Shown: one piece after another, positions 22,446 to 64,000 of the stretch
Layout of the letters: each line of letters begins with the position of its first letter
Position numbering within the stretch: position 1 is the stretch's first letter
Assembly (NCBI GenBank): GCA_018401435.1
Contig: JAGYJW010000010.1
Coordinates: 106,248 to 170,247 of the forward strand
From: Deltaproteobacteria bacterium
GTDB lineage: Bacteria; Myxococcota_A; UBA796; UBA2385
Reading direction: 5' to 3'
DNA: 64,000 nt
Notes under the pieces: generated by a model
What the model saw: the letters and a program-made list of their open reading frames with translations, nothing else
What the model was told of the DNA's origin: nothing
Database searches by the model: none
Made by a program: the position numbers and the translations under genes

Positions 22446-23666
22446 CAGGGCGATCGCATCTAATCGCCGAGGATCTTCAATAGGTATCGATGATCCCAGC
22501 CCGCACGCAGCCTCTTGGTCTTGATGCCCCGCTTGGAGGAGGTCTCCTGCTTGAGGAGGTTGAGTGCGATGCTGCGGACCGTCGCGAGGTTCTCGGCTGC
22601 ATGGCCCTTCCTCGCTCTGGCCTCGTCCTCTCGGAAGGCGATGTCGAGCACCCAGTGCAGTCCGTTCTCGATCTGCCAGTGCGCCCGGACGATGCGCGCG
22701 GCCTCTTGGGCGGCGAGGTCGGGGATGCTGGAGAGGAAGTAGCGCCGGTGGACCGAGGTGTCCTTGCCGAGGGCCGTGCGGTGGGCTTCGACGCAGGCGA
22801 GGCTCTTCATGCCCGCCCAGTCTTCGGACTCCGGCAGCCAGTCGAGCTCGCTCGATGTCCAGACCTTCCGCACCTCGTCGCGGTCGTGGGCCTGGGTGGA
22901 CTCCTCGTGGAAGTCGTGCTGGATGCCGTCGAAGTCCGTGAGGACGCCGTCCTCGAAGAAGCCCTGAACCTCCTGGTGCAGCGTCGGGTGGTTGTCCTTG
23001 AGCGCGAGAACGTAGTCAGCCTCCGCCTTGATGATGACGGCCGCGATGGACTTCTGGCAGCCCATCGCGTCGATGGTGACGATGCAGCCCTTCAACTCGA
23101 GGGCCGCCACGAGCTCGGGGATGGCGGTGATCTCGTTGGACTTCTCGCTCGTCGGTACCTGCCCGAGCACCAGCCGGTTCGCCGTGGCCCAGGCGTTGAC
23201 CAGGTGGATGGGGCCTCGGTTGCTCGCCCCGTCCTTGCTCCGACGAACGGTCTTGCCGTCGATGGCGACCACTTCGTCGTCCACCAGCTCGGCGACTGTC
23301 CCCACCCACCGCATGAAGCTGGCAGAGAAAGCCTCGGGGCTCAGCATCGAGAAGACACGCCCGATGGTGTCGTGCGACGGGATGCCGTTCGGAAGGTCCA
23401 GGATCTTGCGGAGCCACTCCTCCTTGGCCTTCCCGAAGTCCTCGATCTGCACGAATCCATCGGCACCACAGATGACCGCCAGAACGCTCAGGACCAAGAT
23501 GTCCCGCAGCGAGTGGCGCCGTGTGCGCGCCATGCGCGGGTCGGGGATGTCGTCGAAGGACTCCAGGAGGGTCGGCATGCAGATCTGTCCTGATCCCCAC
23601 CGATGCGGGGCTTTGGGTGATCTGCCCGCCCTATCGCGCTGGCCCCGTCAAGATGCGATTGCCCTG
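22446..23666 (-). mobile_element. ISAs1-family insertion sequence, copy B (intact)
   Basis: A 1221-bp element with the same 16-bp terminal inverted repeats as copy A and an identical transposase sequence. A perfect 10-bp target duplication CCCAGGGTGG lies at 22436-22445 and 23667-23676. It interrupts the DppB-like permease gene of the glucan locus in the same orientation as that gene. Confidence 0.95.
22460..23578 (-). CDS. ISAs1-family DDE transposase
   Basis: A complete 372-residue transposase identical at the protein level to the one at 1201-2319, with all three DDE blocks (AIDGKTVRRS, TIDAMGCQ, WQIENGLHWVLD). Identity between two copies 21 kb apart implies very recent movement. Confidence 0.95.
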   Translation of the reverse strand: MPTLLESFDDIPDPRMARTRRHSLRDILVLSVLAVICGADGFVQIEDFGKAKEEWLRKILDLPNGIPSHDTIGRVFSMLSPEAFSASFMRWVGTVAELVDDEVVAIDGKTVRRSKDGASNRGPIHLVNAWATANRLVLGQVPTSEKSNEITAIPELVAALELKGCIVTIDAMGCQKSIAAVIIKAEADYVLALKDNHPTLHQEVQGFFEDGVLTDFDGIQHDFHEESTQAHDRDEVRKVWTSSELDWLPESEDWAGMKSLACVEAHRTALGKDTSVHRRYFLSSIPDLAAQEAARIVRAHWQIENGLHWVLDIAFREDEARARKGHAAENLATVRSIALNLLKQETSSKRGIKTKRLRAGWDHRYLLKILGD

Positions 23667-50344: not shown

Positions 50345-52102
50345 CTACCAGGCGGGATTCCACAGGATGCCCTCGTAGCTGAAGGAAACGGGGTCGCCCA
50401 CATTCTGGCCCACGGCGTCGATCTGCAGGGTGCCCTCCATCCACGAGATCGTCGACCAATTCCAGCCGGTGCCGGCGTCGCGGTAGTAGAGGTTGCCATA
50501 GTCCAGGGTGCCCTGGGTGGGCAGGCTGCCTTCGACGAAGCGGTAGTCAGGGGTGGAGAAGTGGGGCAGCAGCTCGCCCGCGCCCAGGGTGGTCCAACAG
50601 TAGGACACGGCGCGATCGCCCTCCTGGCCCGTATAGGCGCCGCCGGTCAGGGCCCAGGGAGCACCATCCCAGGTGGCGTCGACGGTGCAGGTGCCCGGCG
50701 AGGTGGTGCCGGCGGCGCTGCCCCAGGTGGAGTCGAAGGACAGGGCGATGCGCCCGCGTTCGGACATACACAAGGGGCGGTCCATGGGCCAGGCCGACCA
50801 GGTGGGGCTGCCGCCGGACAGACCGCCCTCCATCACGCGGCGCTGGCCCCGGATGAGGGATTGCAGCCAAGCCAGCTCGTCGGCCTGGATGCGCTGGTAG
50901 GGGCGGATGGTCTCGACCATCTGTGCGGCGCGGTCGGCCATGGCGGTGCCATCCCACACATCGTCCAGCTGGCGCTGAAGCTCGGCGCGGTAGCGGTCTT
51001 CTCCGCCGGGCGCCAGCACCAGGGCCCGGGGCAGGGCGGTGCTGGCGGCCACCCAATCCAAGCCGCCACCCGGGGTGCTCCAGGTCCATGCGGCATCGGG
51101 GCCCCAGGGCAGGAAGGCCCAGCGCCCATCGGCGGGATCCTGGTAGAGGAAGTGGTTGTTGGCATTCCAGGTGTAGCCGTCCCACTGGCCCACCATCACC
51201 TCGGCGGCCCAGAAGCGCAGAAAGGCGTCGATGTCGAAGAGGGCCTCGATGGTGGGCAGGTCTCCCGTCTCGACGGCGGCCATCAGGGGGGGCAGCAGGT
51301 CGGGATCGGCGGCGTCGCTGTCGGGGTCATAGGTACCCAACCAACCCTCGCGTAGATCCGACAGGGTGCCTTCAAAGACGGGCACGTCGTCGCTGCCGGT
51401 CAGGCGCTCCAGGAAGTGGTCGTCCACGGCCTCGACATTGGCGTAGATTCCCAGGTCTTCACCATTCACCGTGACATGGGCAAATCCACAGCGCGACCCG
51501 GGCACCCCCGCCGCCCGGAAGTATTCCAGGGCCAGGCAGGTGCGCACCATGGTGGGGTCTTGGGGGGTGTTGTTGAGGGTCAGGCGCTCCAGACCATGGA
51601 AGCGGCGGTCGTCCACATAGCGGTCAAAGTCCAGCTTGATACCTGGCTTGTAGGGGTCGAGAGAGCCGATGAAGCCCTTCTTGCGGATGGCCACCTGCTC
51701 CAGCGTCTCGCCGTCGATGCGCAGCTCGGCCTCGAACCAGGTGAAGGGGGCTTCGCCGTCGGGGTTCATGCAGTCGCCGGCGATGGCGTCGAAGATGCTG
51801 CGGGTCTGGTTGCGCAGGGCAAACCAGTCCGCCTCGGGCAGGAAGATCTCGATGTCCACCACCTGGTCGGGATCGTAGAGGAAGCTGGCGTCGTCGCCAT
51901 CGCTGCCATCGGACCCGTCGGTGCCATCAGCCCCATCGGCCCCATCGGCCCCATCGGCGCCGTCCGTCCCGTCCGCGCCATCGGCCCCGTCCCCCACCCC
52001 AACAGGCGCGTCGGAGTCTTCGCCCACATCCACCGGGGCGCACGCAGAGAGGCAAGAGGCCGCGAGGCCAAAGACCATGAGAGGGTGCAGGGTGGACCTC
52101 AT
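50345..52102 (-). CDS. CotH kinase-like lipoprotein 1
   Basis: A 585-residue lipoprotein (CLSAC, Cys21) with a long Asp-Gly-Ala/Thr/Ser linker at residues 38-71. The CotH domain follows: QVAIRKKGFIGS with the Lys, KLDFDRYVDDRRFHGL, RLTLNNTPQDPTMVRTCLALEYF, HVTVNGEDLGIYANVEAVDDHFL, and DIDAFLRFWAAEVMVGQWDG. The late motif reads LPWGPDAAW where active CotH kinases have W-D-x-D, so one metal-binding Asp may be missing. A further beta domain (about 450-585) completes it. CotH proteins are Fam20-related secreted kinases. ATG overlaps the upstream CotH 2 stop. Confidence 0.88.
   Translation of the reverse strand: MRSTLHPLMVFGLAASCLSACAPVDVGEDSDAPVGVGDGADGADGTDGADGADGADGADGTDGSDGSDGDDASFLYDPDQVVDIEIFLPEADWFALRNQTRSIFDAIAGDCMNPDGEAPFTWFEAELRIDGETLEQVAIRKKGFIGSLDPYKPGIKLDFDRYVDDRRFHGLERLTLNNTPQDPTMVRTCLALEYFRAAGVPGSRCGFAHVTVNGEDLGIYANVEAVDDHFLERLTGSDDVPVFEGTLSDLREGWLGTYDPDSDAADPDLLPPLMAAVETGDLPTIEALFDIDAFLRFWAAEVMVGQWDGYTWNANNHFLYQDPADGRWAFLPWGPDAAWTWSTPGGGLDWVAASTALPRALVLAPGGEDRYRAELQRQLDDVWDGTAMADRAAQMVETIRPYQRIQADELAWLQSLIRGQRRVMEGGLSGGSPTWSAWPMDRPLCMSERGRIALSFDSTWGSAAGTTSPGTCTVDATWDGAPWALTGGAYTGQEGDRAVSYCWTTLGAGELLPHFSTPDYRFVEGSLPTQGTLDYGNLYYRDAGTGWNWSTISWMEGTLQIDAVGQNVGDPVSFSYEGILWNPAW
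51890..51991 (-). repeat. Asp-Gly-x coding low-complexity tract
   Basis: A run of about 11 triplet-of-codons repeats coding D-G-A, D-G-T or D-G-S in CotH 1. Similar tracts follow the lipidated Cys in other lipoproteins of the window (for example 55222-55320, 53640-53760, 62520-62620). The DNA period is 9 bp, so slippage could alter linker length. Confidence 0.8.
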
Positions 52103-53832
52103 CCGGCGCAGGTCCGCGGGTCGCTGTGGGTGTTGATGCAGTCTCGAATCCAGGCGTCGCGTTGAATCAGCCAGGACCGGAGGTGGGCGACCTCGGTGTC
52201 GTAGTCATAGCCCCGCCAGCGGTCGTGGTTGCGTTGGGCGCTCTCGGCCATCTCGGCGTCGAAGGCGTCCACATGGGCCAATATATTGTCGATGGCCAGG
52301 GGTCCGTCGAGCAGCTCGGTCCAGCGGGCCCAATAGCGGGCCCGGAAGCTGGCATCGGCGAAGAGGCCCCCATACCAGCCATAGCTGAAGAGGGGGGTGG
52401 TATCGGTGGTGAAGTTGGTCGCATCCCAGTAGTTGGCCGCCAGGGCCCGGCTGTCGATGGAGCCCGCCGTGCGGTCGAAATCCCACACGGGGCCGGCCAC
52501 GATGGGGGCCTGCCGGTCCTTGGAGAAATAGCCGCTGAGACGGAAGCTGTCGGGGTTCTTGAAGTAGGCGTTGAGGATGTGGTGGTCGATGAAGGAGTCC
52601 ACATCGAGGATCTCGTCCACCGTGCGGCCCGATCCGGGGTCGGTGCGGTCGCCGCGGGACAGGGCCCGGCCCATGGCGTCGATCTCCGCCGTCAGCCAGT
52701 CCAGCTGCACAGCTTCCAGGTCGCTGGATTCGGGGTCCACCATCACCAGGGGGGTGGTGAAGTAGAAGGCGCCGTCGCCATCCCCCGCCCAGATCTCGGC
52801 GTCGCCGGCGCCGCTGCGGTCGCGCTTGAAGAGGTAGCCGCCGGTGATCTCGGGCTCGTTGATGTCTTCGGGGCCCAGGGCGGCCACGTCCACGCGGTTG
52901 CGCCCGCGCTCGATCTCTTCGGTGAGCGTATAGACGCCCAGGTAGTCGCCCGCGGCCAGGGCGCGGCCCCGGGTGGCCAGCCACAGCTCGACCATGCGGG
53001 TGCGGGGGGCATAGCGGCCCACATCGTTGCTGACGGCATAGACCAGCGCGTTGCGCATCAAGGCGTCGTCGAAGTAGCTGGGGGCGTGCAGCACCCAGTC
53101 TGCATCCGGGGGCATGCCGAGCAGGGAGACGGGGCGGTCGCCTTCGCCTTCGGGCTCCCACAGCTCCAAATCGAAGCCCTTCTTGTCCAGGCTGGAGGAG
53201 CTGGAGCCGCGAATGCGCAGGCGGCCCCGGCCGCTGTCCGCCGGAGCGTCCAGAATGCTGGCCCGCGCGCCGCTGCGATCGAAGAGGGTGATGCCGGCGG
53301 GCGTATTCTCCCAGAGCGCATCGCCGGCTGCATCGGTCCAGATCACGAGGAAGGGCAGGTCGGAGTCGACGTCGGCGACTTCGGCTTCCAACTCGACGAA
53401 GGAGTAGGCCACCAGCTCCCCCTCGGCCTGGGGCAGCTGCACCCGGGCATGGAGGATGGAGGAGCGGTCGACCAGGATGCTGCCCTCGGTCTCGACCGGC
53501 AGGCAGCTGTCGCCCGGGTCGGCCAGGCAGGCGGCCACCACGCCCGCACCGCCCGGATCCACCAGGCTGACGCGGATCTCGTCCACAAAGGCGCCACCGG
53601 GGGGTTGGACCTGGGGCAGACCCGCGCCGCCGGGCAGCACCTCGACGCCATCGTCGCCGCCATCGCCGCCACCGTCCGCGCCGCCGTCCAAGCCATCGGC
53701 GCCATCGCCGCCATCGACACCATCGCTGCCCACCGCAGGCAGATCACCGCTGTCGGAGCGCACCGAACGGGCCGCGATGGGGGTGCAACCCGCCGACAGG
53801 GCCACCAGCAGGGGGAAGGCAGCCAGCCGCAT
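52099..53832 (-). CDS. CotH kinase-like lipoprotein 2
   Basis: A 577-residue lipoprotein started at ATG 53832 (MRLAAFPLLVALSAGC, Cys16). The Asp-Gly linker (VDGGDGADGLDGGADGGGDG) precedes a chitobiase-C-like beta domain (about 75-150) and the CotH domain: RLRIRGSSSSSLDKKGFDLE, GVYTLTEEIERGRNRVDV, DVDSFIDHHILNAYFKNPDS and VWDFDRTAG. The W-D-F-D motif is intact, so this is the paralogue most likely to be catalytically active. It ends ATRTCAG-like with DPRTCAG. The stop overlaps the start of CotH 1 (ATGA). Confidence 0.9.
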   Translation of the reverse strand: MRLAAFPLLVALSAGCTPIAARSVRSDSGDLPAVGSDGVDGGDGADGLDGGADGGGDGGDDGVEVLPGGAGLPQVQPPGGAFVDEIRVSLVDPGGAGVVAACLADPGDSCLPVETEGSILVDRSSILHARVQLPQAEGELVAYSFVELEAEVADVDSDLPFLVIWTDAAGDALWENTPAGITLFDRSGARASILDAPADSGRGRLRIRGSSSSSLDKKGFDLELWEPEGEGDRPVSLLGMPPDADWVLHAPSYFDDALMRNALVYAVSNDVGRYAPRTRMVELWLATRGRALAAGDYLGVYTLTEEIERGRNRVDVAALGPEDINEPEITGGYLFKRDRSGAGDAEIWAGDGDGAFYFTTPLVMVDPESSDLEAVQLDWLTAEIDAMGRALSRGDRTDPGSGRTVDEILDVDSFIDHHILNAYFKNPDSFRLSGYFSKDRQAPIVAGPVWDFDRTAGSIDSRALAANYWDATNFTTDTTPLFSYGWYGGLFADASFRARYWARWTELLDGPLAIDNILAHVDAFDAEMAESAQRNHDRWRGYDYDTEVAHLRSWLIQRDAWIRDCINTHSDPRTCAG

Positions 53833-53931
53833 CAGCGCTCCATAGACAAGCAGGAATCTGCAGTCTATACCGACCGGGGCGCCATCCTCCACCCGAAACC
53901 CACCGGAGCGTCACCCGGCCGCCACGGGCCC

Positions 53932-55050
53932 CTACCAGGACAGGTGCAAGGCGTGGGCCCAGTCCTCGGAGCCCGGGCCGGGTGGGTTCAGGCCGCAGGC
54001 GAACTCGGGCTGGCCCTTCTTCATGCGGTGGTGGGGACCGCCGGCCCGCGCGCCGGACTTCAGCCGATCGCCCTCGTCAAAGAGCACCCAGGCGCCATTC
54101 ACGCCATCGGGGACCACCGCCTCGGCCGAACCCACGATGCGCTCGCGCGGCACCTCACCCAAGGGAGAGGGGGCATCGCCCGGCCGCCACCGGTAGAGGG
54201 CGAAGCCGTTGCCGGGGCCATCGGGGGCGGGGCCGGCGAGGATCAAGACGGTGCCGTCGGGGGCGCGGGCGAGGTCCCGTACGCCGCGCCCGCCCAGATC
54301 CACCGCCCAGGCCCCGCGCAGCAGCTCGGCCAGGGGTTGGCTGCCAAAGAGGGCGGCGCGATCGGCAGAGAAGAGCACCGCCCGGCGCCCCACCAAGGGG
54401 GCGCGAAGGCCGATGAGAAGCTCATTTTCACCGAATAGGCTCGCACCCTCGATATTCAGGGCGTAGCCGTCGTCCTCGCCCGCCACGAGGTCGCCCAGGG
54501 CGCAGTCGGGGCAGCGGGCGACCAGGGCGTCCACCAGGGGCTGCAGGTCGTCCGCCCCTTCTCCAGGCCGCAGGCGGCGGCTGGTGGCCTCGGCCTTCCA
54601 GCCTTCCGGGGTCCAGGCCATGCGGCTGATCGCCGCCCGGCGCCCCAGCTTTCCGGACTTGCTGAGGCTGTGGGAGCCCACCACCCACAAGCGGCCGGAA
54701 TCGTCCAGATCCAGGCCCTCGGGGTCCTTGAAGGGGGATTCAGAGGCCCCCCCGCGGGCGTCGTGGGCCCGTGCGGCCCCGCTGCCCGGCGTCCACGAGA
54801 AGATGCGATCTTCCTGGTCATCGTCCACCACCCAGATGGTGCCGTCGGGGCCGGCTACGGCGGCGGAGGGCTCGCAGAGGCCGGCGATGGCCACCGGATC
54901 GCGGTCCACCCGCAGCCCGGTGGCGGCCGCCGGCTCCACCAGGGGCAGCGCCTCGGGAAGATCGGCTGCAGGGGGGGGCGGCGGGTCCGAAGATGCGCAA
55001 GCTGACAGAGATGTCAGCCCCATTGCGGCCAGAATCGTGATGCGAAGCAA
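53932..55050 (-). CDS. DUF3616 lipoprotein
   Basis: A 372-residue lipoprotein. TTG 55050 is chosen because GGAG lies upstream and it yields signal LLRITILAAMGLTSLSAC (Cys18); ATG 55023 would leave only nine residues before the Cys. The mature part is a beta propeller-like DUF3616 domain: CEPSAAVAGPDGTIWVVDDDQED, KDPEGLDLDDSGRLWVVGSHS (both abbreviated runs), LLIGLRAPLVGRRAVL and VRDLARAPDGTVLILAGPAP. The family is uncharacterised. It lies 99 bp upstream of CotH 2 on the same strand and diverges from the LTD gene. Confidence 0.8.
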   Translation of the reverse strand: MLRITILAAMGLTSLSACASSDPPPPPAADLPEALPLVEPAAATGLRVDRDPVAIAGLCEPSAAVAGPDGTIWVVDDDQEDRIFSWTPGSGAARAHDARGGASESPFKDPEGLDLDDSGRLWVVGSHSLSKSGKLGRRAAISRMAWTPEGWKAEATSRRLRPGEGADDLQPLVDALVARCPDCALGDLVAGEDDGYALNIEGASLFGENELLIGLRAPLVGRRAVLFSADRAALFGSQPLAELLRGAWAVDLGGRGVRDLARAPDGTVLILAGPAPDGPGNGFALYRWRPGDAPSPLGEVPRERIVGSAEAVVPDGVNGAWVLFDEGDRLKSGARAGGPHHRMKKGQPEFACGLNPPGPGSEDWAHALHLSW

Positions 55051-55143
55051 GGTTGACTCCGGGTCCCGAGGGGGAGCAGTCACACAAAGCATCGCATGCT
55101 TGGCTAAGATGTGCTGCTCTTCGCTCGCCTCCCTGGAGATCCC
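55051..55143. promoter_or_regulatory. Divergent promoter region DUF3616 / LTD-CotH 3
   Basis: 93 bp between the TTG of the DUF3616 gene and the GTG of the LTD lipoprotein gene. It holds both ribosome-binding sites and must hold both promoters. It is less GC-rich in the middle (CACACAAAGCATCGCATGC). No palindromic operator is evident. Confidence 0.5.
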
Positions 55144-55758
55144 GTGGCTCGCTCCCCCCTGATGCTGCTCAGCTGCCTGCTGCTCGCCTGCACCCCCGAC
55201 TATGAGAAGACCGACACCGGCGCCTCGGATGGTGCCGATGGCACCGATGGCACCGATGGCACCGACGGAGCCGATGGCACGGACGGAGCCGATGGCACCG
55301 ACGGAGCTGATGGCGGCGACTGGGCCGCGGTGGTGGTCAACGAGGTGATGTCGAGCAACCGCACCACCATCGCCGACGAAGGTGGGGCTTTTCCCGACTG
55401 GATCGAGCTGTACAACCCCACCGGCGCCGCCGTGTCTCTGTCGGGTTGGACCCTCACCGACGATCTGGCCGAGCCGGACAAGCACCCCCTGGCGGCGTCG
55501 CTGGAGGTTCCCGCGGGCGGCTTCTTGCTGCTGTGGGCCGACGATGACGAAGAGCAGGGCGATCTGCACGTGGGCTTCAAGCTGGCCGCCGAAGGCGAGG
55601 CGGTCGGCCTCTTCGCCCCGGATGGCACCGCCATCGACCAGATCAGCTTTGACGCCATCGGCACCGACCTGTCGGCCGCCCGTCAGCCCGACGGAAGCGC
55701 CAACTGGGTGGTGACCGACGCGCCGACGCCGGGCGAGAGCAACGGCGGCGGCCGCTGA
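55144..55758 (+). CDS. Lamin-tail-domain (LTD) lipoprotein 1
   Basis: A 204-residue lipoprotein. GTG 55144 follows GGAG by six bases and gives a signal ending SCLLLAC; ATG 55162 is the alternative. A strict (D-G-T/A)n linker is followed by an LTD domain: VVVNEVMSSN, DWIELYNPTGAAVSLSGWTL, AGGFLLLWADDD, VGFKLAAEGEAVGLF and SAARQPDGSANWV. LTDs are extracellular beta sandwiches common beside CotH domains and nucleases. The stop overlaps the CotH 3 start (TGATG). Confidence 0.9.
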   Translation: MARSPLMLLSCLLLACTPDYEKTDTGASDGADGTDGTDGTDGADGTDGADGTDGADGGDWAAVVVNEVMSSNRTTIADEGGAFPDWIELYNPTGAAVSLSGWTLTDDLAEPDKHPLAASLEVPAGGFLLLWADDDEEQGDLHVGFKLAAEGEAVGLFAPDGTAIDQISFDAIGTDLSAARQPDGSANWVVTDAPTPGESNGGGR

Positions 55759-57376
55759 TGCACCGCGCGACCGCCTTGCTGCTCTGGACGGCCTGTGCGC
55801 CGGCCAATGTCACGGGCCCGGCGGTCGAGGAGGACCCCGCGGTGGGCGATGGGGCCGATGGCGGCGACGGCGCGTCGGATGGCGACGGCGGCGACGGCGA
55901 GCCCCCGGCCCCTGCGGCCTGCAGCACGACTTCAGCGATCCCTACCGCCGCGAGGGCGACCGCATCGCGTTCCACCTGTGGTGCACCGGCAGCGATGCCG
56001 AAGGCACCGAGCTGACCGTCCTGGGAGCGGGCGAGGCGGCCACCGTGGACCCCCTCACCGGCGAATTCGTCTGGCAGACCGATGGCGCCGACGGCGGGCG
56101 CATCGCCCTCACCCTGTCGGCCAACGCCCCCGGGTCGGGCCGCCTGCCCGAGACCCAGGGCCTGGTCTTCTGGATCGCCGATGACCCCGGCGCGCCCGGG
56201 GCCCGCGATCCCGAGCCCCTGCACTATACCGAAGAGTGGGGGCTGCCCGTCATTCACATCGAGGTGGACGGGCCCATGACCGAGAGCGAGCAGCCCGCGG
56301 TCATCACCGTGCGGGACCAGCAGGTGGACGGCGCCGCCAAGATCCGGGGTGCCAGCAGCACCGGCTATCCCAAAGTAAGCTACACCCTTGATTTTCAAAG
56401 CGATGAGCTGAGCGTGGAGGAGTGGGGGGACAAGAGCCGCGAGCACATGGTGCTGACCACCACCTTCGACGACAACAGCTATGTGCGGCAGAAGCTGAGC
56501 TTCGACCTGTGGCGGGCCATGGCCGTGGCCCAGGATGTGCAACGCCTGACCCCCCGCACCTTCTTTGGGGTGGTCTATATCAACGGCGACTATATCGGCC
56601 TCTATATGGGCTGCGACCGCATCGACGACGAGTTCCTGCGCCATATGGGCTTTGCCGGCGAAGGCAATATGTACAAGGCCATCAGCCACGACGCCAACTT
56701 CAAGCTGACCGGCGCCAATGGCTATGCCAAGACCTGGCTGAGCAGCGGCTACGAGAAGACCGAAGGCCCCGAACCCGACGACTTCGCCGATCTGGACGCG
56801 TTGGTTGCATGGACGGGCAGCACCAACCCAACGACGCTGTGGACCGAAGGGAGCAGCCGGATCGACCTGGACGAGTTCATCGACTGGTTCCTCTTTGTCA
56901 GCGTGGCGCTGGCCCAGGACTCCGCCGGAAAGAACGCCTACCTCTACCACGACGAAGACGGCGGCCAGCTCCGCTTCGTACCCTGGGACTTCAACGACTC
57001 CTGGGGGCAGAACTGGTATACCGCCCGCATAGAGGCTGACGTCATCAACGACTATACGTGGAACAACCGGGTCTTTGAGCTGCTTCAGGCCCACCCGGAC
57101 GCCGCCGCCGAGATTCGCGCCCGCTACCAGCGCCTGCGGGACGGCGGCCCCTTCGATCCGGCCTCTCTACAGGCGCTGCTGGACGGCTACTACGCCACCA
57201 TCACCCCCTCCGCCGAGCGGGATTGGGAGACCTGGGGCAGCACCTACCAGCGCTACGACCGCTGGGCCGGCACGCGCAACGCCTATGGCGACTGGCAGGA
57301 CTTCGAAGGCGAGCGGGCCTATCTGGAGACCTGGATCGCCGACCGCATGGCGGTCATGGACGCCTGGGCCCGCTGA
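55758..57376 (+). pseudogene. CotH kinase-like lipoprotein 3 (one frameshift)
   Basis: A single CotH gene in two frames. ATG 55758 to about 55920 encodes the lipoprotein signal (LLLWTAC) and an Asp-Gly linker. After a shift near 55920 the frame reads LQHDFSDPYRREGDRIAFHL, then continues from VDPLTGEF to DAWAR at 57376. The CotH domain has AAKIRGASSTGYPK, YTLDFQSDELS, DNSYVRQKLSFDLW, VVYINGDYIGLYMGCDRIDD, DLDEFIDWFLFVSVALAQDS and VPWDFNDSWG (second motif Asp replaced by Asn). The shift lies in a GC-rich linker and may be a sequencing error. Restored length is about 539 residues. Confidence 0.8.
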
Positions 57377-57391: not shown

Positions 57392-58093
57392 TCAGTCCGA
57401 CTCGGCGCCTTCGGCCTCTTCTTCGCCGGTCATGGCCAGGATGCGCTCCACGCCCTCAATCTGGGAGAGGTCCCGCACCAGCACGCCCATGGTCGCGCCA
57501 GCTTTGAGGCGGATGCGGTAGACGATGCTGAGCGTCTCGCCAAAACGAAGGGAGCGGCTGGAGGCCAGCTCGAACTCGTCGCAGGCCTGGGTGAGCAGGG
57601 GCACGAGGTCTTCGGCCTTGCATTCCCAGGCGGCCAGGTCGCACCGCAGCGTGAGGGGCGCTGGCTGCGGCCGGGTGCCGGGCAATACCGCGAGCACCAG
57701 CACCGCGAGGATGCAGATGACGACGCCCACCGCGGCGACCGAGAGCTTGCCCACCCCGCAGCCGATGCCGGCGGCCAGGGCCAGGAAGATGAAGGTGATG
57801 TCCCAGGTGGTGCGCAGGCGGGTGCGAAAGCGCACAATCGCCAGGGCGCCCACCAAACTGAAGGCCCGAGCCAGGCTGTCGCCGATGACGATGAGCACCA
57901 TGGCCGCCACCACCGGCAACAGGGCCAGCGAGGCCTGCAGCGAGGGTGACACCGTTCGGTTGGGCACGGACAGGCGGTGGGTGATGCTGACAGCGAGGCC
58001 GAGCGCAAAGGCGCCCACCAGGGCGATGATGACCTCTTGGAGGCCGTTGGCGGGCAGCCCTTCCAAGAGGAGCGCCCGTTCGAGGGGATTCAA
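57392..58093 (-). CDS. DUF4956 membrane protein
   Basis: A 233-residue inner-membrane protein with about four transmembrane segments in the first 140 residues and the DUF4956 landmarks SLVGALAIVRFRTRLRTTWDITFIF (in part) and AAGIGCGVG. The soluble C-terminal domain (about 150-225) has a ferredoxin-like strand pattern (IVYRIRLKAGATMGVLVRDLSQIEGVERI, in part). The function is unknown; in other genomes DUF4956 is often beside VTC-domain and CotH proteins, as here. Start overlaps the VTC stop (ATGA). Convergent with CotH 3. Confidence 0.88.
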   Translation of the reverse strand: MNPLERALLLEGLPANGLQEVIIALVGAFALGLAVSITHRLSVPNRTVSPSLQASLALLPVVAAMVLIVIGDSLARAFSLVGALAIVRFRTRLRTTWDITFIFLALAAGIGCGVGKLSVAAVGVVICILAVLVLAVLPGTRPQPAPLTLRCDLAAWECKAEDLVPLLTQACDEFELASSRSLRFGETLSIVYRIRLKAGATMGVLVRDLSQIEGVERILAMTGEEEAEGAESD

Positions 58094-58914
58094 CCTGCGC
58101 TCCGGTGGTCCAGGTGTCGGCGGATGCTGGGGGGGCAGAAGCGCCGGGCTTCGCCGGGGTGGTGGGCCCGCAGCGTCAGGGCGATGCCCAGGGCGAACTT
58201 GCTGACAGGCTCAGAGGCCAGCCGCAAGCGCCCAACGAGATGCCGCATCCAAGCCGGCTTCTGCTCGTCGTACTTGAGTTCGAGCACCATCCAGCCCTCC
58301 GGCAGCAAGGGCTCGCTGCAGGGGCCGCGAAGGGCGAGGGGGTCGGTCTCGGCCTGGGCGCTGACGTGGTGGTCCAGGGTGAGCCGGGAGCTGCCTTCGA
58401 CGAAGGTCTCGCGCAGATAGGCCACCCGACAGACCACGCCCATGCCCTTGCTGCGGGTGGCTTGCACCCACCGTTCGGCCAGGGGGCGCTGCCGCGCCTT
58501 GCTGCGGGCCACAGAGTCCACCCAAGGCTGCCGCGGGTCGCCCAGGGCCCATTGTTCGGTGTCACCCACCTGCACCCGGTGCTTGATCACGCGGTTGGCC
58601 AGCTTGCGTTTGGCTTCGAGGAAGACGGGGGCCTTGCTGCCGGGCTCGCCATAGGTGCGGATACGCAAGCGGTTGCGGATCCGCAGATCGTCGAGACGCT
58701 GGGCATAACCGTCGAGACAGGCGTCATCGAGGTAGAGGCTGCTCACCCGGTAGCCCACGGGGGGCGCGCCCTGGAAGGGGGACAGCTCGGGCAGCCAGGG
58801 GGCCAGCGAGTCGCCATTGAGGTCGGGCGCAATATGGGCCGCGCAGCTCTCCAGCAGCTCGTGTCGCATGGACACGGGCAAGGCGAATTTGAGCTCGGCG
58901 CGGCCCTCTTTCAT
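58090..58914 (-). CDS. VTC-domain (polyphosphate polymerase-like) protein
   Basis: A 274-residue soluble protein with the VTC tunnel-fold layout. Visible blocks are AELKF (Glu7, Lys9), YRVSSLYLDD at 55-64, RIRNRLRIRTY at 78-88, VFLEAKRK near 97-104, KHRV, VAYLRETFVEGSSRLTLDHHV (abbreviated), MVLELKYDEQKPAW and SEPVSKFALG. These basic and acidic residues line the tunnel in yeast Vtc4, which makes polyphosphate from ATP. Whether this protein polymerises phosphate or transfers a nucleotide/phosphate to a neighbour product is unknown. ATG 58914 overlaps the adaptor stop. Confidence 0.88.
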   Translation of the reverse strand: MKEGRAELKFALPVSMRHELLESCAAHIAPDLNGDSLAPWLPELSPFQGAPPVGYRVSSLYLDDACLDGYAQRLDDLRIRNRLRIRTYGEPGSKAPVFLEAKRKLANRVIKHRVQVGDTEQWALGDPRQPWVDSVARSKARQRPLAERWVQATRSKGMGVVCRVAYLRETFVEGSSRLTLDHHVSAQAETDPLALRGPCSEPLLPEGWMVLELKYDEQKPAWMRHLVGRLRLASEPVSKFALGIALTLRAHHPGEARRFCPPSIRRHLDHRSAG

Positions 58915-59924
58915 GGGGCGCCCCGCGCGATGTGGGCCACGCCGGTAGCGCCCACGGGCAGGGCGCTGTCCAGACGCGCCAGCACCCAGATGACCGGGCC
59001 GCCCACGGTGCGGGGGGTGGAGCGGTCCGACAGCGCGACCAGAGTGCCGGGAATGGGCGCGCCGCCGGTCATGGGCTGAAAGCGCAAGGCGGCCCCGACC
59101 TGCATGTCGCCGCGATCGCGGGCGTCGACCGCGACCTGCACCAGGGTGGGTCCGGGGCCCTGCAGCGAGAGCAGCACGTCGCCGCCGGGGCGGTGCAGCG
59201 TGCCATCGAAGGGGGCGGTCAACAGGGCGCCCTGGGCGCGCTGGCGGGCCTCGTCGGCGGCGGCTCCGGCGGCGCGCCGACGGGCTTCGGCCGCGTCGAT
59301 CTCGGCCTCCCAAGGCAGGTCTCGGGCGCCCGCGACCGCGGCCTGGGCGGCCTTGAGGGCGCGCTCTTGCACCTGGACCTCGAGGTCGGCCAGCTCGGCC
59401 TCCCAGGCGGCGCCGCCCCCCTGGCTGACCAGGGCGCGGTTGAGTTCGGCCGTGCGGCGGGCGCGGGCGAGGTTGGCCCGGGCCAGCTCGACCTGGGCCT
59501 GGGCGGCGACGGCCTGGCCCTGGCGGGCGCCAGCGCGAATGGCGTCGACGTCCGCCGCGGCGGCGACCTGGTCCTCGGTGCGGGCGGTGGCGGCCGCTTC
59601 GAGCACGGGGGCGCGGACCCGGGCCAGCGGGGTGCCGGCAGCGACGCTCTCGCCTTCGGCCTTGTCGTGCAGGAGCAGGATCTCGATGGGGGCGCTGCGA
59701 TCGGCCAGGGCCAGGCCCTCGCTCAGCACCGCCGGGCCGCCGGGCACCGTGCCATCCAGCAGGCGCCAGCGCACCAGTCCCTCGCCGGCATGTTCTACAC
59801 GGTATTCGAGAGCGGGCTCTACGACCCCATTCGCGCGGACCTCACCCGGACCGGCGGCCCAGCCGGCGGCCAGGGCCAGGCCCAGGGCACCCGCCGCACC
59901 CAGGATGAGGCGCAGCGGGTTCAA
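58911..59924 (-). CDS. HlyD-family periplasmic adaptor-like protein
   Basis: A 337-residue protein with one N-terminal membrane anchor (LILGAAGALGLALAAGWAAG), two half-lipoyl segments (GESVAAGTPLARVRAPVLE and LTAPFDGTLHRPGGDVL, the classic pair) and a long alanine-rich helical hairpin between them (about 115-235). The C-terminal beta barrel ends SALPVGATGVAHI. Adaptors of this type bridge an inner-membrane component to the outer membrane, but no ABC or RND partner is encoded here; the DUF4956 protein could be the partner, by inference. Coupled on both sides by ATGA overlaps. Confidence 0.85.
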   Translation of the reverse strand: MNPLRLILGAAGALGLALAAGWAAGPGEVRANGVVEPALEYRVEHAGEGLVRWRLLDGTVPGGPAVLSEGLALADRSAPIEILLLHDKAEGESVAAGTPLARVRAPVLEAAATARTEDQVAAAADVDAIRAGARQGQAVAAQAQVELARANLARARRTAELNRALVSQGGGAAWEAELADLEVQVQERALKAAQAAVAGARDLPWEAEIDAAEARRRAAGAAADEARQRAQGALLTAPFDGTLHRPGGDVLLSLQGPGPTLVQVAVDARDRGDMQVGAALRFQPMTGGAPIPGTLVALSDRSTPRTVGGPVIWVLARLDSALPVGATGVAHIARGAP

Positions 59925-60802
59925 CCGGCCTCCCCGGCCCGCCAGAGGGTTGGGCCCACGCCCTCGGACAGGGTGTAGACGCCATCGTTGCTTGCGGCCA
60001 CGGCCTCGCCATCGGACTCGGGGGGAGGAGGAGCCGAGCAGGCCCCGCCGGACAGGGCCGCGGCGACGTCCTGGTCGGCGCCCACCTCATAGCGCAGCAA
60101 GGCGTGGTCGGTTCGCAGCCACAGGCTGCGGCCGTCGGGGCTGAAGTCGGCCCCCCGCACCGCGCCGGCGCCGGCCGCGTCACCATCGGTGAGGTCCAGG
60201 TGGAGCACCACCTCGCCGGCCTTCCCATCGTTGGCGGCGGTCAGCTCGGGCAGACGCATCAGGTCAGAGCCCGTGGGGTCACGAGAGAATACATAGAGGC
60301 GGCCGTCTCGGGGGTCGGCGATCAGGGCCTCGGCGTCGCGGGCGCCATCGGGCCAACGGAAGGCGAAGCCCTGCAACACAGCCACCCGGCCATCGGCGGT
60401 CACCGTCTCGGGTTCGGGCAGGCGCCAGATGCGGATCTCGCTGCGGCTGGCGTCGTTGTCGCCGATATCACCCACAAAGAGCAGGTCCTGGCCATCCACC
60501 GTGGCTGCGGCGACATCCTCCCAATCCACTTGGTTGGCCCCAGGCAAGGTGAGCGAGCCTCGATCGCTGCCGTCGGTGCCCAGGGCATAGAGGACGCCGT
60601 CGGATCGCCCATCGTCGTTGTGGGTCCACAGCAGGTTGGCGTGGCGCCGGCTGAGGGCCAGGCCAGAGGCCTCGTCCAGCGCCGCCTGGGCCACGGTGCC
60701 CGCCGCCACCGGATCCGAAAAAGAGGGGCAGCCGCCGGTATCCGCCGCGGGAGCGCAGGCGGATCCGGTCGCCAGGGCGACCCCACAGGCCCAGGCCCTC
60801 AT
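59921..60802 (-). CDS. Beta-propeller-like lipoprotein
   Basis: A 293-residue lipoprotein (VALATGSAC, Cys16). Repeated blades such as DEASGLALSRRHANLLWTHND (in part), LLFVGDIGDNDASRSEIRIW, DAEALIADPRDGRLYVFSRD and GADFSPDGRSLWLRTD resemble esterase-like/phytase-like or DUF839 propellers. An Asp-rich GDIGDND motif suggests metal binding. It lies between CotH 4 and the HlyD-like adaptor with overlaps at both ends, so it is an obligate member of the operon. The activity is unknown. Confidence 0.8.
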   Translation of the reverse strand: MRAWACGVALATGSACAPAADTGGCPSFSDPVAAGTVAQAALDEASGLALSRRHANLLWTHNDDGRSDGVLYALGTDGSDRGSLTLPGANQVDWEDVAAATVDGQDLLFVGDIGDNDASRSEIRIWRLPEPETVTADGRVAVLQGFAFRWPDGARDAEALIADPRDGRLYVFSRDPTGSDLMRLPELTAANDGKAGEVVLHLDLTDGDAAGAGAVRGADFSPDGRSLWLRTDHALLRYEVGADQDVAAALSGGACSAPPPPESDGEAVAASNDGVYTLSEGVGPTLWRAGEAG

Positions 60803-62058
60803 CCTTCGGGTCGCTCCCCGATCCAGTACACGACCGAAGCGCGACGGTTCTGCAGCTTGCTGATCATGTCGGCCTGGTAGGCGTTGACATTGGACAGGCT
60901 GTAGTTGCGGTTGGGGTCGGCCTCGACCCAGGGGCGGATCTGGTCGGCGACCTCTTGGGCATAGCCCGCGATGTCTTCGCTCTCGGCAAGCTCCAACGTA
61001 TCGTAGACCCGGTTGGCCCATGCGTCTCGACACTCGGGCACTTCGCGGCAGCGGGCGGACAGGTGTCCGGTGGCCCGGCCCTCGAAGTTGTCGTCGTAAT
61101 AGAAGGTCTCGTCGGTGCCATGGGGCAGGTAGACCAGCTTGCCGCGGGCCGGATCGAAGTAGACGTGGCAGTCGTCGCCGGCAAAGCGGAAGGGGTAGGC
61201 GTCGAAGTTCATGGCGATGGAGCTGCCCGCCCAGTAGCGGTGGAAGGCGTCCCAATCCAGGTATTCGCCAGCCGCCGCCAAGGCCTCGGGCCCCGAGGAC
61301 TCCAAGGCGTCGGCCACCGCCTGCAGCGACGTGCGATCGTCCTCGCCCACCTCGTGCTGGAAGTAGAGGTCATTCTGCACATAGTCGTCGGTGAAGTCGC
61401 CGTCGTGCTGCTCCCACATGGAGCCCAGGGGCTCCTCGAACCAGCCCTTCAAGAAGATGTCGTCCAGGGTGTCGAGCAGGGTGAAGAGCCCGTAGAGCTC
61501 GCCATTGACGTAGACCACCGCGTGGTGGGCGCGCGACGCGGGCACGCCGGCCATCCGGTAGATCCGGTAGGCGACCCGCTCGTGCATCATGGAGTAGTCT
61601 TCATTCATGCCCTGGAAGGTCAGGCCCTTGAGGCCGAGAAAGCGGTCCGGCCCCTCATCGTACCGATTGAAGTCCAACTTGAAGGAAGATTTCTCACTGA
61701 AGGGCCGCCAGGAGTTCTCGCCCTTGGTGCGAATGCCGATGGGGCCGAAGCGCACGCCCTGCCAGATCAGCGTGGCCTCGGTGTATTCATAGGGATCCGT
61801 GCGCAGGTTGGCCAGGCTGTCATCCGAGATCTCGAGTTCGAAGACCGGCAGCTCGTCCTCGTTGAAGAGCACGGAGCTGTCGTTGGGAAGCCCGGTGATG
61901 GACTCGACCTCGTCGTCGCGCACCCCCGTCCAATCGCCGGGGTCCACGCCGCCGTCGGCGCCGTCGCCCACTGCGCCAGAGTCACCGTCTACGGGCCGAG
62001 AGAAGCTGCCCTTCCCGCTGCCGGGGGAGCAGGCCAGAGCCATCAGGAGGAGGAGCAT
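60799..62058 (-). CDS. CotH kinase-like lipoprotein 4
   Basis: A 419-residue lipoprotein (MLLLLMALAC, Cys10) with linker DGDSGAVGDGADGG. The CotH domain is nearly canonical in its first half: IGIRTKGENSWRPFSEKSSF, KLDFNRYDEGPDRFLGLKGL (conserved Lys and FG-L), NEDYSMMHERVAYRIYRMAG, VVYVNGELYGLFTLLDTLDD. The late motif is LPHGTDETF in place of W-D-x-D, preceded by SIAMNFDAYPF. It sits in the operon that also encodes VTC and DUF4956 proteins. Start overlaps the LTD stop (TGATG). Confidence 0.9.
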   Translation of the reverse strand: MLLLLMALACSPGSGKGSFSRPVDGDSGAVGDGADGGVDPGDWTGVRDDEVESITGLPNDSSVLFNEDELPVFELEISDDSLANLRTDPYEYTEATLIWQGVRFGPIGIRTKGENSWRPFSEKSSFKLDFNRYDEGPDRFLGLKGLTFQGMNEDYSMMHERVAYRIYRMAGVPASRAHHAVVYVNGELYGLFTLLDTLDDIFLKGWFEEPLGSMWEQHDGDFTDDYVQNDLYFQHEVGEDDRTSLQAVADALESSGPEALAAAGEYLDWDAFHRYWAGSSIAMNFDAYPFRFAGDDCHVYFDPARGKLVYLPHGTDETFYYDDNFEGRATGHLSARCREVPECRDAWANRVYDTLELAESEDIAGYAQEVADQIRPWVEADPNRNYSLSNVNAYQADMISKLQNRRASVVYWIGERPEG

Positions 62059-62693
62059 CAGGGGTCCAGTGCCGCAGCGGCGGCGTTGCTGAGTCCCGGT
62101 GTGGCGGGGGCCAGCAGGTGCAAGGCGCCGGCATCGGGCCAGCGGCCCGCGACCTGCCCGCCATCCAGGTTGCCATAGGACAGCTGGTCCAGGGGCACGC
62201 CATCGGGGTCAAAGAGGCCCAGGTCTTCGCCTTCGGCCCCCAGCTTGAAGTCGAGGTGGTTGGGGCCTGCGTCGCCCTCGCCATCGGCGAGCAGCACCAG
62301 AAAGCCGCCGGCCGGAAGGCTGAGGGCCCCCAGCCGGTGCTTTCGGGGGTCCGCCAGGTCGTCGGTGATGAAGAAGCCGGTCAGCTCTACATCGTGGTCC
62401 GAGGGGTTGTGCAGCTCGATCCAGTCCGGCGTGGCCTCGGCATCATCGGGGTCCACCGCGACGCCTGAGTTGGCCGCCATGAACTCGTTGATCACCAGGC
62501 GAAAGGTGCCCGGAGGCAGGACCTCGCCCGTGTCGCCATCGTCCCCGTCGACGCCATCTCCGCCATCGGCGCCCACGACGGGATCACCGCTGTCGTCCCC
62601 GCCATCGGCGGGGTCGTCCACGAAGGCGTTGCAGCCGAAGCAAAGCAGCGCGAGCCCGAGGCTCGGGCGCGTAAACCGCAGGTCAAGGAGCAC
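62058..62693 (-). CDS. Lamin-tail-domain (LTD) lipoprotein 2
   Basis: A 211-residue lipoprotein. GTG 62693 gives signal VLLDLRFTRPSLGLALLCFGC and overlaps the beta-helix gene by 11 bp; no other plausible start codon precedes the lipobox. The Asp-Gly linker (DGGDGVDGDDGDTG) leads into the LTD: LVINEFMAANSG, DWIELHNPSDHDVELTGFFI, AGGFLVLLADGEGD, LDFKLGAEGEDLGLF and QVAGRWPDAGALHLL. It pairs with CotH 4 exactly as LTD 1 pairs with CotH 3. Confidence 0.88.
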   Translation of the reverse strand: MLLDLRFTRPSLGLALLCFGCNAFVDDPADGGDDSGDPVVGADGGDGVDGDDGDTGEVLPPGTFRLVINEFMAANSGVAVDPDDAEATPDWIELHNPSDHDVELTGFFITDDLADPRKHRLGALSLPAGGFLVLLADGEGDAGPNHLDFKLGAEGEDLGLFDPDGVPLDQLSYGNLDGGQVAGRWPDAGALHLLAPATPGLSNAAAAALDP

Positions 62694-64000
62694 CCGGCCC
62701 CCCAAAGAGGCCCATGTCGGAGCGGCTGCCGTCGCGATCAAGGATCGCGGGATCGCCGCTGTCGATGCTGGGGCTGCCCGCAGACAGCGTCCAACCCGAG
62801 CCAAAGCGCGGGTCGGCGTCGATATTGCCGTCGCTGCCGGTGGGGTCGGTCATGCCGTCGGCTGCGCTGGAATTGCCGTAGAGGTTGTTGTAGCGAGCGG
62901 TGATCACGCCAGCGCCTTCGGCGGTGTCGGCGACGTAGAGGGCCGCGCCGCCCGTATTGCCGTCGAGGATGGAGTTGGTGAGGCCGATGGCGCTGCCCTT
63001 GACCGCGACTCCCGCGCCGGTGGGCGCGCTGTTGCCGTCCAGCACGAGGTTCACCAGGTCGATGTCGCCGGCCTTGATGTAGATGGCGCCGCCATCATCG
63101 GAGGCCACATTGCCCTCCAACACGCTGTTGCTGAAGGCGATGATGGTGTCCTGGTAGTAGTTCTCGGCGCCGCCCACTTCATCGGGGTTGCGGTAGATCA
63201 GGTCCACGCAGAAGCCGGCCCCGTCCACCGCCTCGTTGCCCGAGATCAGCAGGTTGCGGACGTTGATCTGGTGGGGGCTGTTGTCGAAATTGAGCCCGCC
63301 GCCGCAATCCGAGGCCACATTGCCCTCGAAGGTGGAGTCTTCGATGATGAAGCTGCGCTCGGTGCGCCAGTTGTGCAGGCCTGCACCCCGGCGCGCCCGG
63401 TTGTTGCGGAAGGTGCAGCCGGCCACCTCGGAGCTGTCGTTGTCGAGCTCCAGGCCGCCACCGGCATCGCCTGCGACATTGTCCTCAAGCACATTGTCGA
63501 GGAAGTCGTGCTCGCTGTGGCTGACCTTGGCGCCGCCGCCGTCGTCGTTGGCGCTGTTGCCGATCATCGTGTTGAACTGGATGCGGCTGGACCCGATGTA
63601 GTGGCGCAGCCCGCCGCCGTCGTCCGATGCCGCGTTGTGGGTGATCAGGTTGCCCTGGATCAGCGCGGTGCTCTGGTTGAAGTAGATGCCTGCGCCGTCT
63701 TCGCCGCAGGTGTTGGAGTCGACGGTGTTGCCGATGACCTGCGGGCTGCCGCGGTAGAAGTAGCCGCCACCACCGTTGTAGGCGCTGTGGTTCTCGGCGA
63801 TCACGCTGCCGCTGATGGTGCCGGTGGTGGCAAACCAGATGCCGCCACCGCCGCCGCCGGTCCCCCAGATCTCCTCGTCGGGGGAGGTGGTCTCGTTGCC
63901 GCGGATCTCGCCATCCACGAAGTTGACCTCGCCGCCAAAGAGGAAGAGGCCGCCGCCGTGGCTGGCCACGCTGCTCTCCACCGTCGTGCGGGCAAGCTCG
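62683..64000 (-). CDS. Right-handed beta-helix repeat surface protein (partial)
   Basis: The C-terminal 430 or more residues of a protein that runs off the right edge of the window. It is built of about 20-24-residue coils with the polymorphic outer-membrane-type pattern G-N-x-A-x-x-D-G-G-G (for example ITHNAASDDGGGLR, MIGNSANDDGGGAK, LEGNVASDDGGAIYIKAGD). The end reads DADPRFGSGWTLSAGSPSID and DRDGSRSDMGLFGGPGAP, the usual closing motif of choice-of-anchor/parallel beta-helix proteins. Likely a secreted adhesin or enzyme-like surface protein; the N-terminus and any signal peptide are outside the window. Confidence 0.88.
   Translation of the reverse strand, partial: ELARTTVESSVASHGGGLFLFGGEVNFVDGEIRGNETTSPDEEIWGTGGGGGGIWFATTGTISGSVIAENHSAYNGGGGYFYRGSPQVIGNTVDSNTCGEDGAGIYFNQSTALIQGNLITHNAASDDGGGLRHYIGSSRIQFNTMIGNSANDDGGGAKVSHSEHDFLDNVLEDNVAGDAGGGLELDNDSSEVAGCTFRNNRARRGAGLHNWRTERSFIIEDSTFEGNVASDCGGGLNFDNSPHQINVRNLLISGNEAVDGAGFCVDLIYRNPDEVGGAENYYQDTIIAFSNSVLEGNVASDDGGAIYIKAGDIDLVNLVLDGNSAPTGAGVAVKGSAIGLTNSILDGNTGGAALYVADTAEGAGVITARYNNLYGNSSAADGMTDPTGSDGNIDADPRFGSGWTLSAGSPSIDSGDPAILDRDGSRSDMGLFGGPGAP

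Follow-up and report, generated by a model that had tools for sequence, protein, structure and literature searches.

The 64,000-nucleotide window analyzed here, from contig JAGYJW010000010.1 of a Deltaproteobacteria bacterium (GCA_018401435.1), closes with a minus-strand operon of six whole genes and the 3' end of a seventh, in which every pair of neighbors overlaps (Table 1). The operon can tentatively be read as encoding a polyphosphate synthesis-and-export line across the cell envelope, centered on a VTC-domain protein, a DUF4956 membrane protein and a HlyD-type adaptor. An initial annotation of this DNA described a seven-gene envelope operon joined by ATGA, TGATG or 11-bp overlaps. From the beta-helix gene to the DUF4956 gene, the six junctions are 11 bp, TGATG, ATGA, TTGA, ATGA and TTGA; all of them overlap, and the two TTGA junctions, at the TTG starts of the HlyD-like and DUF4956 genes, replace ATGA junctions of the earlier description. 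Six of the seven genes are complete, and the beta-helix gene is cut because the contig ends with the window, whose last position is the exact contig end. Pfam backs every gene identity in the operon except that of the propeller protein (59921-60802), for which the Pfam search gave no match. Together, junctions and Pfam identities bear out the view of one overlapping envelope gene set.

Table 1. Genes of the operon and of its flank, by position in the window
Feature	Position	Strand	Evidence and remarks
Beta-helix protein, 3' part only	62683 to beyond 64000	-	PF13229 5.9e-13
LTD (lamin tail domain) protein	62058-62693	-	PF00932 3.7e-12; GTG start; 11-bp overlap
CotH-domain protein	60799-62058	-	PF08757 8.5e-33; PDB 5jd9 1.8e-10
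Beta-propeller protein	59921-60802	-	Most similar solved fold: YjiK C-terminal domain
HlyD-type periplasmic adaptor (membrane-fusion protein)	58911-59924	-	PF13437 3.3e-6; TTG start
VTC-domain (triphosphate tunnel) protein, predicted cytoplasmic polyphosphate polymerase	58090-58914	-	PF09359 1.1e-26
DUF4956 membrane protein	57392-58093	-	PF16316 3e-13; TTG start
CotH protein	56045-57376	+	CotH 1.4e-55; convergent with operon
LTD protein	55111-55758	+	In-house LTD profile match; convergent with operon
DUF3616 propeller protein	53932-55092	-	PF12275 7.6e-9; lipoprotein-like N terminus
CotH protein	52099-53892	-	PF08757 6.7e-42
CotH protein	50345-52102	-	PF08757 9.5e-33

The central proteins exceed their Pfam cut-offs, VTC with 94.2 bits (curated cut-off, 23), CotH with 114.6 (curated cut-off, 23.8), DUF4956 with 50.3 (PF16316 cut-off, 30.6) and the HlyD-like protein with 28.2 (HlyD_3, PF13437, cut-off, 22.2). 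The adaptor also matches an in-house adaptor profile at 8.8e-54, a circular result from a profile rebuilt from its own hits, and its sequence suggests, by eye, a long helical hairpin that may reach the outer-membrane duct. The LTD protein contains an Asp-Gly linker; its N terminus and that of the CotH protein look lipoprotein-like by eye. The genome assembly (7.13 Mb, 204 contigs, 94.9% complete, 6.25% contaminated) holds one VTC match, one DUF4956 match, 13 CotH matches and two PPK1-type matches. The same genome search gave 14 HlyD_3 and 13 TolC-type matches, none on the contig of the window; it missed the HlyD-like gene of the operon, which Pfam found at the protein level. Publications are given below by their PMC identifiers and cited from excerpts.

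Conservation of the gene neighborhood

A VTC gene is present in 106 of the 235 genomes of the phylum sample (probably Myxococcota). Regions around the listed VTC matches comprise 120 loci plus the window; one of these lacks VTC by profile, leaving 120 counted loci, window included. Partners were counted with in-house profiles within 8 kb of VTC (CotH on either strand, DUF4956 on the same strand), and since these profiles were built from the loci that they count, the numbers may be inflated. A same-strand DUF4956 gene accompanies VTC in 112 loci. The narrower first DUF4956 profile found 100 loci, with the same-strand gene at most 1 kb away in 76, and a second DUF4956 family, confirmed by Pfam in L101 (2e-43), added 13. 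The adaptor occurs in 74 loci, and in 72 of these no more than 1 kb separates it from VTC or DUF4956 on its own strand. TolC-type outer-membrane proteins are found in 33 loci, all with an adaptor on the same strand. Pfam confirms the adaptor in six of seven loci checked (L146, L062, L139, L160, L076 and L080) and the TolC type in L146 (2.6e-34). CotH is near VTC in 51 of the 120 loci and is thus less common as a partner than the adaptor and DUF4956. Two propeller types (27 and 11 loci) and LTD proteins (18 loci) follow; the beta-helix stands outside the conserved core, with matches in 5 of the scanned sources, the window included.

The commonest gene orders are VTC-DUF4956-adaptor (20 loci), DUF4956-CotH-VTC (15), VTC-DUF4956-adaptor-TolC (9) and VTC-DUF4956 alone (9). 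The order of the window, LTD-CotH-propeller-adaptor-VTC-DUF4956, recurs in L005/L078 (one contig) and, with intervening genes, in L007/L104 (one contig) and L008. In a named genome collection searched by VTC similarity, all 10 loci keep HlyD-VTC-DUF4956 in order; two of them stem from one isolate and at least five lie on contigs also contained in the phylum sample. Genes that are separate neighbors in the window are fused in some relatives: 23 frames match both the adaptor and the propeller profiles (9 by a strict non-overlap rule), and L135 and L084 each have a protein that joins CotH to a C-terminal beta-helix, one of the two domains scoring below its Pfam cut-off in both cases. The gene set thus goes beyond chance and is a real, conserved envelope module.

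The outer parts of this module vary. Adjoining DUF4956 on the same strand, a DUF2490-like protein is found in 12 loci without an adaptor (L113-L116, L118, L119, L127-L129, L131, L154 and one more), with Pfam support in L131 (1.1e-17); in Bacteroides thetaiotaomicron, the DUF4956 and DUF2490 genes BT3498-99 are likewise side by side (PMC10434189). An adaptor, CotH or DUF2490-like neighbor is present in 74 of the 78 loci that have 5 kb on both sides. Because many adaptor-less relatives have a CotH or DUF2490-like neighbor instead, the inner-membrane VTC/DUF4956 pair seems to be a shared core machine to which different outer parts are added.

Outside the phylum, VTC is rare in the Acidobacteriota sample (9 of 149 genomes), where the 12 regions contain DUF4956 in all 12, CotH in 9, an adjacent adaptor in 3 and a more distant one in 1. 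The six Gram-positive loci from plasmid-collection records contain DUF4956 throughout and CotH in four. By genome, CotH and VTC occur together in 95 of 235 cases, VTC alone in 11, CotH alone in 29 and neither in 100 (odds ratio 29.8, p 1e-26); by genus, the corresponding counts are 65, 7, 21 and 70 (odds ratio 31, p 6e-19), with both Fisher tests using raw counts that ignore kinship and assembly completeness. The wide co-occurrence of CotH, VTC and DUF4956 that the initial annotation expected among relatives is thereby found in the loci of the phylum sample, in other phyla and in the genome counts.

The VTC, DUF4956 and CotH proteins

The initial annotation had made its reading depend on the VTC tunnel residues, and these are kept. 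A profile built from 36 VTC sequences matches the yeast Vtc4 structure 3g3q (E 7.9e-18). A Vtc4 complex with impaired catalysis carries changes at R264, R266 and E426 (PMC9911596); their aligned counterparts in the window protein, R84, R86 and E212, are invariant across the 36 sequences. Further invariant residues are K9, K102, K111, R113, R168 and R177. Three of the four acidic-patch positions of related hydrolases could be mapped, the correspondence with AtTTM3 being derived from PMC4641920 and the Vtc4 alignment; two of them carry basic residues, as Vtc4 does (R5, nearly invariant, and K214, invariant), and the third, E7, is acidic. On this evidence, polymerase chemistry is likely for the VTC protein, as judged from its sequence, and polyphosphate would be the product. 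With two PPK1-type matches in the genome, an extra polymerase for storage alone would presumably be redundant.

The AlphaFold2 model of DUF4956 (predicted local distance difference test, 86.1) shows five long predicted helices and an ACT-like C-terminal domain, whose matches are ACT/ferredoxin-like and include the C-terminal domains of MgtC. Among 30 sequences, R40, R76, R88 and R90 are invariant and R92 is kept in 93%. If the ACT-like domain lies inside, R40 and R88-R92 would face the cytoplasm, much as basic residues mark the entry to the yeast VTC channel, and DUF4956 is a candidate conduit for the polymer.

The operon CotH aligns with Bacillus cereus CotH (1.8e-10). D228 and D251 are the catalytic aspartates of Bacillus subtilis CotH, and their mutants are inactive (PMC7821199). 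With the positions mapped from spacing in 5jd9, the operon protein keeps the D228 equivalent, has Gly at the D251 equivalent and keeps the Asp two residues on, reading P-H-G-T-D where known CotH has P-W-D-x-D. Of the other CotH proteins in the window, the one at 50345-52102 also has Gly at this position and the remaining two have Asp. With 14 of 63 counted CotH genes showing it, including two from the window, the D, G, D pattern seems to characterize a subfamily rather than to reflect decay. The CotH genes of the DUF4956-CotH-VTC loci are divergent and often have a residue other than Asp in the D228 column. The operon gene is classed from its sequence as a CotH-domain protein and not as a kinase. 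The initial annotation proposed that the envelope system modifies surface proteins such as the neighboring Asp-Gly lipoproteins; this proposal is weakened, as the Gly at the D251 equivalent means that kinase activity on these lipoproteins is not to be assumed.

The region from 50.3 to 62.1 kb of the window contains four CotH genes. The convergent LTD and CotH pair beside the operon has an equal arrangement in L005. After the LTD stop, the plus-strand CotH shows a lipoprotein-like start out of frame with the CotH domain, which points to an apparent frameshift near 55.9 kb, either real or from the assembly. The DUF3616 protein fits a propeller profile made from the adaptor-propeller fusions (3.7e-61), again a circular result from a profile rebuilt from its own hits. 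Elsewhere in the window, identical 372-amino-acid translations occur at 1201-2319 and 22460-23578 on the minus strand, which we take to be a transposase-like gene type, with degraded-looking copies near 33.4 kb and at 44-45 kb.

Proposed polyphosphate export and its alternatives

In the export line that is tentatively favored, the VTC protein is a predicted cytoplasmic polymerase that would use ATP to build the polyphosphate chain. As the chain grows, DUF4956 would conduct it through the inner membrane, and from there the HlyD-type adaptor would deliver it outward by way of a TolC-type duct. The CotH, LTD and propeller proteins at the surface would use or bind the polymer, CotH perhaps by anchoring it. 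VTC, DUF4956 and adaptor would form one complex, served by a TolC-type protein from another locus of the genome. The initial annotation proposed a system making or transferring phosphate or polyphosphate across the inner membrane; the module resembles a trans-envelope export line more than a donor only, a preference that follows from the adaptor coming with a TolC-type protein in 33 loci. A further step, possible but doubtful, would be a tripartite exporter of a new class, with the polymerase and a DUF4956 channel replacing the pump and chain growth pushing polyphosphate through the inner membrane and the HlyD/TolC-type duct to surface CotH proteins. Bacterial polyphosphate is mostly regarded as an internal store made by PPK. 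The export line, if true, would provide a dedicated secretion route for polyphosphate through adaptor and TolC-type duct, assign a function to the VTC/DUF4956 pair and could explain what the kinase-like CotH uses outside the cell, where ATP is scarce.

A pump was looked for near the adaptor. Pfam finds no ABC, RND or MFS pump among the operon genes of the window. Across the 74 adaptor loci, regions up to 6 kb from VTC contain no same-strand ABC-ATPase motif, and 9 of the loci have an opposite-strand one. Near 48 well-flanked adaptor loci, 65 of 164 other same-strand frames were searched with Pfam; the first 25 of the 82 families in them include none of the ABC, RND or MFS type, a partial test of the relatives.

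Several points weigh against the export line, besides the possible inflation of the locus counts, the raw-count statistics and the Gly in the operon CotH. By the in-house profile, 46 of the 120 loci and all six Gram-positive loci lack an adaptor, and the adaptor of L104 has no Pfam match. The window operon contains no TolC-type gene, the TolC-type matches of its genome lying on other contigs. Another same-strand frame with at least four predicted transmembrane segments is found within 6 kb in 19 of the 74 adaptor loci; these frames are not recurrent, and some are surely shadow frames. In the VTC protein, E7 is invariant and acidic where Vtc4 has Thr, and triphosphate hydrolases of the superfamily carry a Glu near this position (PMC4641920). 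Polyphosphate synthesis is demonstrated for no bacterial VTC protein in the literature searched, and for the Streptococcus intermedius VTC homologue SIR_1593, the excerpt of PMC12345266 reports no effect of deletion on aggregation or on Pel. The likeness of DUF4956 to MgtC and ACT-like sensors suggests regulation as much as transport.

An unlikely alternative is that VTC and DUF4956 supply polyphosphate or a phosphoryl donor to the periplasm only, where CotH phosphorylates the Asp-Gly lipoproteins and LTD proteins and the adaptor serves as a scaffold. The association of CotH with VTC by genome and genus argues for it, as do the CotH genes near VTC in 51 of 120 phylum, 9 of 12 Acidobacteriota and 4 of 6 Gram-positive loci and the four CotH genes of the window. 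It is opposed by the Gly at the D251 equivalent in two of these four, by adaptor partners that are commoner and closer than CotH and by the fact that known CotH uses ATP.

It is also improbable, at about one chance in four, that VTC synthesizes or splits a small phosphate compound and that an MgtC-like DUF4956 with its ACT-like sensor tunes how HlyD and TolC export a polymer of the envelope or a matrix protein, without export of polyphosphate. The MgtC C-terminal domains among the DUF4956 matches fit this regulatory role. In S. intermedius, deletion of the DUF4956 and CotH homologues altered Pel and aggregation, with loss of the DUF4956 homologue raising Pel and loss of CotH lowering it (PMC12345266), and this pattern, together with the missing VTC effect, points the same way. 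One phylum-sample locus, L089 (G123), has VTC within 1 kb of PelG and is the only one to do so. However, the two partial tests described above show no conserved inner-membrane pump near the adaptor, and the window genome (94.9% complete) has no PelG match at E ≤ 0.001, so that contiguity with Pel is not found. By genome, PelG and VTC occur together in 13 cases, VTC only in 93, PelG only in 7 and neither in 122, a link that is not significant on these raw counts (p 0.098).

A coincidental operon of unrelated envelope genes overlapping in a dense genome, for which the 13 CotH matches of this genome might speak, is very improbable, because the neighborhood is conserved in the 10 loci of the named collection and across the phylum sample, and adaptor and propeller are fused in relatives.

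Comparison with known systems

The trio of CotH, VTC and DUF4956 is already in print: CotH, a polyphosphate polymerase and DUF4956 are accessory genes of Gram-positive Pel loci (PMC7112168). The accessory set CotH-PPP-DUF4956-DUF4832 resembles the window operon in having CotH, VTC and DUF4956 side by side (PMC7112168, PMC12345266). In contrast, the window genome lacks a PelG match, and the operon adds adaptor, propeller and LTD genes and, in relatives, TolC-type partners. The excerpted analyses of PMC12345266 found no such gene arrangement outside the Pel locus; unlike these, the sampled loci, G123 excepted, place the trio away from Pel. Planococcus maritimus and Pseudobutyrivibrio xylanivorans also contain the annotated trio, with no Pel-named gene in the stretch shown.

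In Clostridium perfringens NELoc-2, VTC, 'tubulin' and CotH genes form a run (PMC2879425), and a comparable run on the Planococcus maritimus plasmid NZ_CP059541.1 consists of VTC, DUF4956 and CotH; no Pel-named gene occurs in the part seen. Because NZ_CP059541.1 has the same order, the 'tubulin/FtsZ GTPase' beside each VTC gene of NELoc-2 is probably a misnamed DUF4956. These runs differ from the window in that a HEAT-repeat gene and a glycosyltransferase follow, with no adaptor by profile in Planococcus.

The yeast VTC complex, comprising the Vtc4 TTM domain and a membrane channel of Vtc1, Vtc3 and Vtc4, shares with the operon a TTM polymerase domain, its catalytic residues and a membrane partner with conserved basic residues (PMC9911596). 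Here, polymerase and membrane part are encoded by separate genes, there is no SPX domain, and adaptor and TolC-type partners are found in these loci; by sequence, the DUF4956 profile matches no Vtc chain in the PDB.

A link of VTC or DUF4956 to a HlyD adaptor was not found in the literature searched, and in the excerpt of PMC10434189, DUF4956 and adaptor terms appear only in different rows of an expression table. What is new is that the CotH-VTC-DUF4956 trio is tied to a HlyD adaptor and a TolC-type duct. Tripartite exporters consist of an ABC, RND or MFS pump, a HlyD-type adaptor and TolC; the module described here shares the adaptor and, in 33 of 120 loci, the TolC-type protein, but the place of the pump is apparently taken by VTC and DUF4956.

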